Shown here in pieces: positions 5,653 to 12,134 of a stretch of 64,000 nucleotides of DNA (position 1 is the first letter of the stretch; each line of letters begins with the position of its first letter). The DNA comes from Treponema primitia ZAS-2 (GTDB lineage Bacteria > Spirochaetota > Spirochaetia > Treponematales > Breznakiellaceae). The stretch spans positions 1,736,001-1,800,000 of the forward strand of contig NC_015578.1 of assembly GCF_000214375.1 (NCBI RefSeq), read 5' to 3'. A program made the position numbers and the translations under genes. The notes under the pieces were generated by a model. It was not told where the DNA came from. It saw only the letters and a list, made by a program, of their open reading frames with translations, and did no database searches.

Positions 5653-7259
5653 TGAACGAATTTTCCGGTGAGCGGATCCTTATACTGGGCGCCGGTGTCA
5701 TGCAAGGCCCCGCCATCTCTATAGCCCGGGACCTGGGGCTTTTTACCGTGGTGGTGGATGGGGATCCAAATGCGCCGGAAGTTTCAAAGGCGGACCGTTT
5801 TGAATGTATCGACCTCAAGGATAAAGAAGGCATAGCCGATCTGGGCCTGTCCCTGCAATCCAATGGCGGACTTGGGGGCATCATGACCGCCGGAACCGAT
5901 TTTTCCGCGACCGTGGCCTGGGCCGCGGAAAAACTCGGCCTTCCGGGCATCCCCTATGAAGCGGCCCTCAACGCCTCCGACAAGGACCGTATGCGCCGTT
6001 GTTTTGAGGCTGCAGGGGTTCCTTCTCCCCAGTTTACGGTTTTCACAGGCGAAACCCTGAAAGGGAAACTCCCGGCATTGCCCTTTAGCTACCCCGCGGT
6101 AGTAAAGCCCGTGGACAATATGGGCGCCCGGGGCTGCCGCCGGGTAGACACCCCGGAAGAATTGACCGCCGCCTTGGAAGATGCCCTAGGCTTTTCCCGT
6201 TCCGGCCGGGCTATCGTGGAAGAATATATGGACGGCCCGGAATTTTCCGTGGACGCCATCGTATATAAGGATGAAATTCATGTTTGCGGTTTTGCGGATC
6301 GGCATATTTTCTTCCCCCCTTATTTCATTGAGATGGGCCATACCATGCCTAGTAATCTGGGTAAAAAGGAAACAGCATCCCTTATGGAAGCTTTTTTCGC
6401 CGGCATTCGGGCCCTGGGAATCAGCGGCGGGGTAGGGGCCGCCAAGGGGGACCTGAAGCTTACCCCTCGGGGACCCATGATCGGGGAAATTGCCGCCCGC
6501 CTTTCCGGGGGCTATATGTCCGGCTGGACCTACCCCTACGCCTCCGGAGTGGACCTGACCCGGCTGGCCATTCTCACCGCCATGGGACGCCGTCCTGTGA
6601 ATTTTGGCCCCCTCCACCACTGGACCAGCGCCGAGCGGGCTTTCATCTCCATCCCCGGCAAAGTCCGCTCCATCCAGGGCCTGGATCAGGCCCGGAACAC
6701 CCCTCTGGTCAAGGATGTTTTCCTCCGGGCCGCCCCGTCTTCCCTTGTCCGCTTCCCTGAAAACAATGTCTCCAAATGCGGCAACGTCCTCAGCGCCGCC
6801 CCTGACCGGGGGGGTGCAATCGCCGCCGCAGAAGGCGCCGCCTGTTCGGTGCTTATACGCCTTGAGGCTCCCAACCCTGAAACCGCCGCCTTCCTGACCG
6901 CCACCGCCGCCTTCCCGCCGGGGGCCTATACTCCGGACGCCGCAATTTTGGCCGCCTTGAACCGGTTACCAGACCCCCCGGAAACCCATTTTCTAAAACT
7001 ATCTACTATAAATATAATCCCCTTTCCTGAATTTACCGGTTCCTCTCTGATGGATTACATGGGGAGAAGCCCGGAGGAAAGCCTGGAAGCGGTGCGGTCC
7101 ATCACCGGTCTGGCCCTGCCCATAAAAGACTCGGGGGATACGATCACCCTGGGCCGCCGTTTCTGGGCCGCCCTGATACGGGGAGGCTACCAGGGCGGGG
7201 CTTATTTTGTCGATACTATAAACAACCAAACAGAGCAGGGAGAAGGGAAAAAAATATGA
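5652..7259 (+). CDS. ATP-grasp ligase
   Basis: Predicted 535-residue ATP-grasp enzyme. A Rossmann-like N-terminus (ILILGAGVMQGP) is followed by an ATP-grasp core with FSYPAVVKPVDNMGARGC, AIVEEYMDGPEFSVD and metal-site residues in MIGEIAARLSGG. These features match carbamoyl-phosphate-synthase-like or L-amino-acid-ligase-like members, which form amide bonds through an acyl-phosphate. An extra C-terminal ~190 residues have no motif that I recognise. The ATG at 5652 overlaps the preceding stop codon (TAATG) and is preceded by GAGGGA. In this operon an amide-forming step on a sugar or a linked amino acid would fit; that is inference. Confidence 0.7.
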   Translation: MNEFSGERILILGAGVMQGPAISIARDLGLFTVVVDGDPNAPEVSKADRFECIDLKDKEGIADLGLSLQSNGGLGGIMTAGTDFSATVAWAAEKLGLPGIPYEAALNASDKDRMRRCFEAAGVPSPQFTVFTGETLKGKLPALPFSYPAVVKPVDNMGARGCRRVDTPEELTAALEDALGFSRSGRAIVEEYMDGPEFSVDAIVYKDEIHVCGFADRHIFFPPYFIEMGHTMPSNLGKKETASLMEAFFAGIRALGISGGVGAAKGDLKLTPRGPMIGEIAARLSGGYMSGWTYPYASGVDLTRLAILTAMGRRPVNFGPLHHWTSAERAFISIPGKVRSIQGLDQARNTPLVKDVFLRAAPSSLVRFPENNVSKCGNVLSAAPDRGGAIAAAEGAACSVLIRLEAPNPETAAFLTATAAFPPGAYTPDAAILAALNRLPDPPETHFLKLSTINIIPFPEFTGSSLMDYMGRSPEESLEAVRSITGLALPIKDSGDTITLGRRFWAALIRGGYQGGAYFVDTINNQTEQGEGKKI

Positions 7260-10253: not shown

Positions 10254-11513
10254 ATGAATAACAGAAAGCTTCCGGATCAACAGGCTCTTCAAATTAGATA
10301 TGAAGGATACTCTGAAGCAAGGCTTGCCATTGCCAAGGAATTGCAGGAGCTCATTGAACATTCGGTTCAGGAGTTGCCATCTCCCCTCATGGTAAAGGTC
10401 AGGTCTAAGGATTTTGTCAGTTTTTTTAAAAAATATATACGAATCCTCAATAGCGGTTCCCCGGAACTGATAGGTAAGGATGGCTCTCCCCGCATTACGG
10501 ATATTATCGGTGTTCGCATTATATGCCCCTTCCTTGAAGAAATTGATATGGTGGAGCTCATACTCGCCAGGGTTTTTGAGATAGTTGAAGTTGAAAAAAA
10601 GGGGGCCAACTATTCTTTTAAGGAATTTGGCTATGAGTCAATCCATATCCTGGTTAAAATCCCTGCCAGTTTAATCGAAAAGCACGGAGCCTGCGGTTGT
10701 GACGTGGCCGAAGTGCAAATCCGCACCATACTTCAGAATGCCTGGGCCGAGGTTGAGCATGAACTGGTCTATAAGGCTGAATTTAATCCCTTTGGGGAGC
10801 CCATGAAGCGGAAACTGGCGGCGATTAATGCCAACCTTTTCCTGGCGGATGTTATTTTTGAAGAAATCAGGACCTACCAACGCCAGTTGAACGGTGAGCT
10901 GGGAAAGCGCCGGCATTCTTTTTTCAAAAAGGTCGAAGATGCCACTGATGCCCTGTTGTTCAACCCCGAAGAACCGGAAGAACCTGAAGAAAGGCTTGAT
11001 GGGCTTCCTATGGAATTCATCCTTGGGACAAAGGAAAATTCCTCCATGGATGATCTCCTTCTGGAAGCCCTTTCCGCCCACAATAAGAGCCAGTTTAACG
11101 AGGCCATCTATTTTTACAGCCGTATCCTGGAAATGAACCCCGACAATTCGGTTCGCGCCCTGGTATACAAACACCGGGGCATGGCAAATTTTGCCCGGTC
11201 TCATTACGAAGAAGCTCTGAAGGACTTCTCCAATTCCCTGAAATTGGATCAAACATCCTATAAATCGGCCTATTACCGGGGCCTGGTCCGGGCGGTGCTC
11301 CAGCAGTACTCAGAGGCCATAGAGGATTTTACCCTTTCTGTACAGATAAACCCCTACCAGCACTTCTGTCTGTGCCGCCGGGGCCAAGCTTATTACCACC
11401 TGGGTGATTACCCCCAGGCTTTGGCGGACTGTGAAGCCGCTCTTGTACTGGACCCGTCTTCTCAAACCGCCCTGCAATTCCGAGACCTGCTCCGGGAAAA
11501 ATTGAAAATGTAA
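10254..11513 (+). CDS. RelA/SpoT-type alarmone synthetase domain with TPR repeats
   Basis: A 419-residue protein. Residues ~45-175 form a RelA/SpoT nucleotidyltransferase domain, with SPRITDIIGVRIICPF, FGYESIHILVKIP and EVQIRTILQNAWAEVEHELVYK matching the (p)ppGpp synthetase core motifs. There is no HD hydrolase domain and no TGS/ACT region. An acidic linker (Glu/Pro-rich, ~235-250) leads to at least three TPR units covering ~265-415, such as ALVYKHRGMANFARSHYEEA. The TPR region is likely a protein-interaction module that may control synthesis. It should make (p)ppGpp, but activity is inferred from the motifs. Confidence 0.8.
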   Translation: MNNRKLPDQQALQIRYEGYSEARLAIAKELQELIEHSVQELPSPLMVKVRSKDFVSFFKKYIRILNSGSPELIGKDGSPRITDIIGVRIICPFLEEIDMVELILARVFEIVEVEKKGANYSFKEFGYESIHILVKIPASLIEKHGACGCDVAEVQIRTILQNAWAEVEHELVYKAEFNPFGEPMKRKLAAINANLFLADVIFEEIRTYQRQLNGELGKRRHSFFKKVEDATDALLFNPEEPEEPEERLDGLPMEFILGTKENSSMDDLLLEALSAHNKSQFNEAIYFYSRILEMNPDNSVRALVYKHRGMANFARSHYEEALKDFSNSLKLDQTSYKSAYYRGLVRAVLQQYSEAIEDFTLSVQINPYQHFCLCRRGQAYYHLGDYPQALADCEAALVLDPSSQTALQFRDLLREKLKM

Positions 11514-11517
11514 GATG

Positions 11518-11789
11518 CGGGTTCGACTCCCGCCACTTTATTATTGGAGGTGGCGGGAGTCGGGCTGGGGCTTTTGTCACTAGGACCCCCCTGCGGCCCT
11601 ACGCACCTGCTTGGGCCTTAGGGGGCTGGACAGGGGTTCGATTCCAATTTGTTCGGAAAATTAAAAATTTGGAGGTGAGGGGAATCGAACTGTTGGCCTT
11701 TGTGGCGTAGGACCCTCCCTACGGTCCTACGCTCTTGCTTGGACCGTAGGGAGGGCTGGACGCGGGTTCGACTCCCGCCACTTTATTAT
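11518..11789. repeat. Tandem inverted-repeat array abutting the ssrA 3' end
   Basis: The 3' end of ssrA is echoed in this stretch. The sequence TGGAGGTG (the end of the acceptor stem in complement) recurs at 11545, 11670 and 11790, so the period is 120-125 bp. Each unit pairs a T-arm-like sequence with its inverted copy. The copy at 11757-11781/11795-11819 is a perfect 25-bp inverted repeat that includes the functional T-arm. Between units lie further hairpins: CCCTCCCTACGGTCC with GGACCGTAGGGAGGG, perfect over 15 bp, at about 11711-11755, and a less perfect version at 11585-11630. No tRNA D-arm or anticodon arm is present. It lies between two converging transcripts, so it may terminate both. 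Confidence 0.75.
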
Positions 11790-12134
11790 TGGAGGTGGCG
11801 GGAGTCGAACCCGCGTCCAAATACGCGAAGCACAAGCGTCTACAGGTTTAGCCGTGAATTGAATTGTCGGGACTGGCTTGGCTTCTCGGCGCGCGGCCTG
11901 TCCGTATTCCGGGAGTTTCTCGCCGCCCCCCGTCCGGAACCGGGGTTTGGCCAGCCTTGATTGCGACGGAAAGCCGGCCCCTCAAGGCGGCGGGGCCGGG
12001 TTCCGCGCTCTACTGCTTACGCAGCGAAAGCGTAACTGTCATTGTTGGCAGTTAAAATTTTGCCGAATCAGGAGATCGGCACTCCACCTGCAGCTTGTAC
12101 TCCGAACCGTACCTGTCGAAACCGGTGCACCCCC
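11790..12134 (-). ncRNA. ssrA: Transfer-messenger RNA (tmRNA)
   Basis: tmRNA rescues stalled ribosomes and tags the unfinished protein. The 5' acceptor strand GGGGGTG (12134-12128) pairs with CACCTCC (11797-11791). The T-arm is GCGGG-TTCGACT-CCCGC. The tag frame at 12049-12017 encodes ANNDSYAFAA followed by TAA, a typical tag ending in Ala-Ala. CCA is not encoded after the discriminator A, so it would have to be added after transcription. The 3' end adjoins the inverted-repeat array described separately. Confidence 0.95.

Follow-up and report, generated by a model that had tools for sequence, protein, structure and literature searches.

The 3′ ends of tRNA genes are among the commonest landing sites of mobile DNA in bacteria, and occupants of these sites that carry no genes have hardly been described. 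Islands of the T-loop class cross over within the T-loop, restore the 3′ end of the tRNA and leave a direct repeat behind; a T-loop junction with a restored tRNA 3′ end is likewise the trace of tRNA-targeting tyrosine integrases. Behind the tyrT gene of Escherichia coli tandem repeats are found (RtT RNA, RF00391), each unit of which contains a copy of the tRNA 3′ end; to our knowledge neither an inverted arm nor a conserved core has been described for them. The attC sites of integrons are non-coding palindromes of 57-142 nt, in which structure is conserved over sequence and which act as folded single-stranded DNA (PMC2727003). REP and REPIN sequences are short, imperfect, non-autonomous DNA palindromes present in many copies, with RAYT (TnpA-REP) proteins as their transposases (PMC8266576, PMC3116915, PMC3733652). 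In this work we have analyzed the repeats downstream of ssrA in Treponema primitia ZAS-2, which look like a divergent branch of a family of tiny DNA hairpins, non-coding and apparently undescribed, at tRNA 3′ ends. We read the array, with a probability of about two in three, as a tandem pile of miniature, non-coding, palindromic, site-specific DNA-hairpin cassettes.

The window, i.e. the whole stretch of 64,000 nucleotides that was analyzed, corresponds to bases 1736001-1800000 of the T. primitia ZAS-2 genome (4,059,867 bp, single contig). The tmRNA gene has been located on its minus strand (11787/11790-12134; ARAGORN, Rfam), and the array occupies the full interval between it and the convergent RelA/SpoT-TPR gene, ending one base short of the stop codon of the latter (11511-11513; Table 1). 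The original prediction that the ssrA 3′ end is echoed three times, each time with an inverted partner, was confirmed (11514-11819) by a repeat search. In it the direct 3′-end copies came out at 11544, 11669 (125 further on) and 11789 (another 120), together with a 49-nt direct repeat (11514/11759, 98%). The perfect 25-bp inverted repeat expected next to the gene is present (a′ against ssrA: 25 nt, 100%, 13-nt gap), and the further hairpins noted earlier are real, e.g. the 15-bp arms (100%) of the unit 1 palindrome. Read on the minus strand, the sequence runs from the tmRNA (... TGGACGCGGGTTCGACTCCCGCCACCTCCA) through ATAATAAA, GTGGCGGGAGTCGAACCCGCGTCCA and a palindrome to ..GTTCGATTCCCCTCACCTCCA, followed by a spacer, an inverted arm, a palindrome, ..CGACTCCCGCCACCTCCA, ATAATAAA and an inverted arm. 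In the middle copy (B) the allele differs, its sequence GTTCGATTCCCCTCACCTCCA being that of the tmRNA end in the congeners G001 and G002. From the array and the neighbour gene together ARAGORN calls a second, permuted-type tmRNA (11317-11879, minus strand, tag AASQSAKAWG), which is almost certainly spurious.

Table 1 Organization of the ssrA array of T. primitia ZAS-2 (positions within the window)
Feature	Position	Strand	Source
ssrA (tmRNA), host gene, tag ANNDSYAFAA	11790..12134	-	ARAGORN, Rfam
Copy A, functional tmRNA 3′ end, T-loop C56 to discriminator, CGACTCCCGCCACCTCCA	11790..11807	-	
Short A+T spacer from copy A to the inverted partner, without terminator	11782..11789	-	
a′, T-arm copy in inverted orientation, perfect complement (25 bp) of ssrA 11795-11819	11757..11781	+	repeat search
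Core palindrome of unit 1, arms 11713-11727 / 11741-11755	11713..11755	.	repeat search
Copy B, direct 3′-end copy, tmRNA allele of congeners, GTTCGATTCCCCTCACCTCCA	11670..11690	-	
b′, inverted T-arm partner of copy B, allele as in B, TGGACAGGGGTTCGATTCC	11627..11645	+	repeat search
Core palindrome of unit 2 with hairpin AAGCAGGTGCGTAGG, arms nearly perfect (11586-11599 and 11613-11625)	11586..11625	.	
Copy C, direct 3′-end copy, match from C56 at 11545-11562	11545..11565	-	repeat search
c′, inverted partner of copy C, truncated at the stop codon of the convergent gene	11514..11536	+	repeat search
Convergent neighbour gene, RelA/SpoT domain and TPR repeats, stop codon at the distal end of the array	10254..11513	+	

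A pattern of a T-loop followed by an inverted T-loop within ~90 bases matched 74 of the 149 genomes of the order and, when reversed as a control, hardly any. In the recurring unit the tRNA 3′ end is followed by a spacer, in many cases a terminator, then by an inverted T-arm with the end TTCGAACCGGAG, by ~100-130 bases of core and finally by a direct copy of the tRNA 3′ end starting from the T-loop. A covariance model, R2, was built from 12 compact units (the E-values of such home-made models are rough) and detected the family in 96 of 149 genomes, among them all five families of the order, most of the genomes being drafts in which tandem arrays are collapsed and the units within one genome not being independent. 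Four genomes from other orders or classes of the phylum also have R2 units, again beside tRNAs. T. primitia ZAS-2 has 20 of them, located at Ser, Glu, Gln, Arg, Met, Trp, Thr, Pro, Gly and other tRNAs, and the core is common to units at some 20 kinds of tRNA gene. Of 95 distinct units, 90 are situated directly 3′ of a tRNA or tmRNA gene or of the previous unit, two at contig edges and three behind a tRNA-like sequence unnamed by ARAGORN. A core-only model without the tRNA-derived arms returned the same 20 places in T. primitia ZAS-2, and 29 of the 30 matches fetched with it adjoin a tRNA or tmRNA; therefore the location beside tRNAs is not a product of the model. When the pattern was scanned against the genomes of 84,980 species, true members appeared in spirochaete records only, a lower bound because the scan pattern was strict. 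Pattern matches in Acidobacteria (L219, L221) and in three IMG/VR contigs have no model match, are apparently coding and were rejected as chance.

Searching the window and 20 loci with the 4227 covariance models of Rfam gave only tRNA, tmRNA and SRP above gathering scores; sub-threshold matches in the window were tmRNA pieces and unrelated families, and RtT (RF00391) had no match there. The family is absent from Rfam 15 and from the literature searched, which covered few subscription papers and makes this absence weak evidence. Some individual arrangements were recorded as well. At G000:C1:3458945-3459073 (L142) a full-type unit is located behind a tRNA-like sequence that ARAGORN misses, ~2 kb from a Y1-transposase ORF. 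In HGW-Spirochaetae-7 (L212, unit at 6602-6678) a partial second copy of the 3′ half of tRNA-Pro(GGG) lies between the tRNA and the cassette. Locus L091 (tRNA-Pro CGG, at about 708 kb of its own genome) has at least two units of another core type with a AAAAGGCGATTCAATGAGCCTTTT hairpin, and a similar hairpin is present in the tRNA-Pro(GGG) unit of G113 (L059).

The window ssrA units have no match to R2. A whole-genome search with the array and the 3′-end pattern revealed one other place, a second array (3542852-3543164) beside tRNA-Ala(GGC), and a separate model, R1, joins the ssrA units to it. The second array consists of two units of the ssrA-type layout whose inverted arms match tRNA-Ala instead; one of the two scores weakly with R2 (22 bits). 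Both arrays share the order tRNA 3′ end, spacer, inverted T-arm, palindromic core and direct 3′-end copy, and in both the inverted arms are longer than in R2 units. A 12-base hairpin, AGCAGGTGCGTA, is common to this subtype and an R2 unit (L079), and R2-type units occupy the corresponding place behind the tmRNA in G022 and G031. It is thus highly probable, on the strength of the layout, the sister array at tRNA-Ala, the tmRNA units of G022 and G031 and the shared hairpin rather than of the R2 score, that the ssrA and tRNA-Ala(GGC) units represent a divergent short subtype (R1) of the hairpin-cassette family.

The flank of ssrA differs among relatives: G004 has one unit, with arms that follow the T-loop variant of G004 itself (TTCAATT in place of TTCGACT), and G001, G002 and G005 have none there. 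Two other tmRNA flanks were seen to carry repeats. Those of L038 (G013), two repeats of 50 bp, each consist of an inverted T-arm copy joined to a direct one with no core between them (GCGGGAGTTG / CCAACTCCCGCCACCTCCA), and may be core-less cassettes or deletions. In L037 (G011) tandem units ATATCGCTTTCGCGATACTGGACCTCCA, each with an end resembling the tmRNA 3′ terminus, have a different hairpin and a similar echo.

In the R2 units the inverted arm pairs with the direct copy to give helix P1, which encloses first CC-GGA and then helix P2, comprising a small CC-GA-NN-loop-NN-GA-GG hairpin and a second one with the loop AGGAU or AGGGAU; P2 is followed by GGA-GG and by P3, which has symmetric GGA/GGA and GA/GA loops and the loop AGGAN. 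GNA-type loops and GCGAAGC/GCGAAAGC mini-hairpins, which are unusually stable in DNA, recur in the units. Among 94 distinct units standard pairs make up 95.1% of the paired cells, double changes occur at 35 of 38 pairs, and covariation reaches 0.706 vs 0.171 for shuffled and at most 0.103 for slid controls, in an alignment fitted to the structure. For the 12-sequence seed, aligned by MAFFT without structure and provided with a structure drawn by hand afterwards from single-sequence folds, covariation was 0.641 vs 0.200. The 3471 cells of the element helices contain 44 G-U (1.3%) and 30 A-C (0.9%), and G-U is about seven times commoner (9.2% of stem pairs) in 153 tRNAs from those loci. Since an A-C pair of one strand appears as G-U in the opposite strand, neither strand behaves like RNA. 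To judge from base pairing, the near-pure Watson-Crick, covarying helices point to folded single-stranded DNA, not RNA, and look selected or corrected as DNA.

Very strong covariation would also be expected of a structured non-coding RNA downstream of tRNAs, a three-way junction closed by P1 and co-transcribed or processed with the tRNA. The GA and GGA loops are purine-rich on the tRNA strand only, in an RNA-like manner, and as this fits a structured RNA as well as a DNA strand that folds on that side, the RNA alternative keeps some weight; the units, moreover, often finish with a copied terminator. We nevertheless consider an RNA unlikely in view of G-U pairs as scarce as A-C and far below their level in tRNA stems of the same loci, the lack of any Rfam family match, and a terminator-like T-run (T5 or longer) which separates the tRNA from the element in 33 of 83 units.

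The junction of the cassettes with their host genes is base-exact. Identity between the direct copy and the host tRNA, compared over 83 units, is 0.05 at T55 and 0.95 at C56, and the first nine bases from C56 match the host at 0.94-0.99. The inverted arm (82 units) agrees with its own host at 0.93-0.99 for nine bases, from C56 to position 64; agreement drops to 0.65 at the next base and is nearly random further on. Over 16 nt its mean identity with the own host is 0.74, and shuffling of the hosts gives 0.53 (maximum 0.57). At different tRNAs, such as Gln in G017 and Arg in G159, cores can be up to 90% alike, and in T. primitia ZAS-2 the Arg and Trp units have cores 79% alike with arms 33% alike. 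Alike cores combined with unlike arms suggest that cores move and that arms follow the new host.

Twenty R2 units in T. primitia ZAS-2 stand against none in five congeners (four drafts 69-78% complete, the fifth 90%). At tRNA-Glu(CTC) and tRNA-Gln(CTG), which carry two and four tandem units here, the congener flanks, where found, consist of unrelated sequence and have no units. Such absence is what lineage-specific insertion followed by amplification predicts, and it may also reflect loss in the congeners. Local tandem duplication with quasi-palindrome correction, brought about by template switching at tRNA terminators, would account for such structures with no mobile element at all. It would agree with direct repeats that reach into the spacer (34 of 83 units), with stems that are almost perfectly Watson-Crick and with the large single palindrome often formed by a terminator and the flanking tRNA end, and some arrays are explicable by tandem duplication alone. 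The common core, helices and loops at some 20 kinds of tRNA gene in all five families, a left junction fixed at C56 everywhere and orthologous congener sites that lack copies argue against it, and we hold local duplication to be rather improbable as the origin of the family. Inserted cassettes remain our preferred reading; it counts against them that, had the foreign allele at present in copy B arrived with a new cassette, the T-stem of the tmRNA would have been mismatched in the meantime.

The search for an enzyme did not associate any candidate with the family. Y1 transposases (PF01797) are encoded by 48 of the 96 genomes that carry the family and by 21 of the 53 that lack it. The family is present in 30 of the 49 genomes with IntI over the cut-off and in 66 of the 100 others; neither tally over the 149 genomes, uncorrected for phylogeny, indicates an association. 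One Y1 ORF lies 2 kb from a T. primitia unit, yet given the tally Y1 was rejected as the driver; the complete genome G042 has seven units and no Y1. No IntI over the cut-off is present in T. primitia ZAS-2. An IntI-like recombinase of ~400 aa looked promising because it neighbours a unit in G041, and was dismissed after 18 of 20 loci proved to be without a unit nearby and the gene of L232 to have sites of its own. The latter locus (L232:4210-9500, about 2031210-2036500 in its own genome) exemplifies tyrosine recombinases of ~390-440 aa with an extra N-terminal stretch, similar ORFs being found in L233-L250. They match the integron integrase model on both sides of, and not across, positions about 177-234, which are probably the IntI-specific insert. 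In L232 the recombinase ORF is followed by repeated attC-like sites (TGCGCATAAC...GTTATGTGCA), and the locus may be an integron-like system with a non-IntI integrase.

Beside the units no neighbour gene, integrase, recombinase or island border recurs; the only recurrent neighbours are syntenic housekeeping genes and spurious ORFs spanning the repeats. The idea of repeated insertion that keeps the attachment site intact has held in general, as judged from the sharp T55/C56 junction, the restored 3′ end, the tandem growth and the empty congener sites. Nothing of this is peculiar to ssrA, the family being present at the 3′ ends of most tRNA kinds, and neither an island nor an integrase is attached to the array, so ordinary island excision is not the explanation. 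In principle the units could be remnants of the attachment sites of ordinary phages or islands with tRNA T-loops as their targets, whose tyrosine integrases would leave just such a T55/C56 junction and restored 3′ end. This is very improbable. Conservation and covariation of the palindromic core speak against it, as do the lack of recurrent integrases or island borders next to the units and the lack of any match in phage and plasmid records, the IMG/VR pattern matches being chance.

As mobile cassettes, the units would each lie in the T-loop of a tRNA or tmRNA gene, with the junction between T55 and C56. Such a cassette would be made up of a replacement 3′ end that reaches from C56 to the discriminator, a spacer, which in many cases is a terminator, the 3′ half of the host T-arm copied in inverted orientation, and the structured core. 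Entry at T55/C56 would restore the gene and leave the tRNA functional, and the displaced old 3′ end would thereby come to mark the distal end. Arrays would arise by repeated insertion or later unequal exchange. In single-stranded DNA the inverted arm and the direct copy would pair as P1, and the core would form two more helices, interrupted by G-A and GGA internal loops. A recombinase would probably act on this folded strand and recognize it by P1, by analogy with attC sites (PMC2727003) and with REP and IS200 hairpins (PMC8266576, PMC6006769). The arm may be re-matched after a jump, perhaps, as we prefer to guess, when one arm of the palindrome serves as the template for the other in replication. 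Whether the family amounts to a categorically new mobile element, a gene-less hairpin that enters T55/C56 as folded single-stranded DNA and rewrites its arm for each new host, is a more tentative matter, to which we give somewhat less than even chances.

Like integron cassettes, the units form tandem arrays by a primary site which is restored on insertion (PMC2727003). The family differs from attC sites in lacking the R′ and R″ boxes (GTTRRRY/RYYYAAC): the elements end in TTCGAAC and GGAAGG/CGA, and GTTCGA departs from GTTRRRY at position 4. It also targets the T-loop of tRNAs (T55/C56), has arms that match the host tRNA, is scattered over many tRNAs and shows no IntI association. With REP and REPIN sequences it shares short palindromes in many copies; in the consensus GGAG precedes both core hairpins, which recalls the GTAG/CGTC (or GGAG) tag below the palindrome of REPs and can also be read within the symmetric GGA/GGA loops. 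Unlike REPs, the units are strictly confined to tRNA 3′ ends, have host-derived arms, a length of about 110-150 nt and three helices, and are not tracked by Y1 transposases. The tyrT repeats resemble the family in their tandem units behind a tRNA with a 3′-end copy in each. Islands of the T-loop class are similar in the direct repeat from the T-loop (C56) that restores the tRNA 3′ end, as seen in 83 units, whereas the family carries neither cargo nor an integrase gene, the repeats enclosing just ~100-150 bp of core, stays under about 250 bp and has an inverted, host-matched arm.

The inverted partner had been suspected of competing with correct folding of the tmRNA. In thermodynamic terms, and with the tail included, the suspicion is supported: for the tmRNA plus 95 nt the partner-paired fold is predicted at -229.0 vs -205.3 kcal/mol for the fold with the mature acceptor and T-arm, which is thus ~24 kcal/mol worse, and the 25-bp hairpin of the T-arm with its inverted partner is predicted at -55.5 kcal/mol. 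A terminator-like site was looked for between ssrA and the inverted partner and none was found. By these calculations the hairpin is predicted to beat the mature fold provided that transcription continues beyond the tmRNA end.

Where a covarying structure has hardly any G-U pairs, selection or correction at the level of folded DNA is cleanly indicated, and with 20 copies in one complete genome T. primitia ZAS-2 offers a natural system for the movement of single-stranded DNA hairpins and for the matching of palindrome arms. For annotation the family is a warning that ARAGORN and Rfam can take cassette arms for pieces of tRNA or tmRNA. The arrays also raise the question of whether they serve as decoy attachment sites that shield tRNA genes from integrases. 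If the proposed mode of entry and arm rewriting is true, one small family could occupy most tRNA species of a genome, harmlessly.
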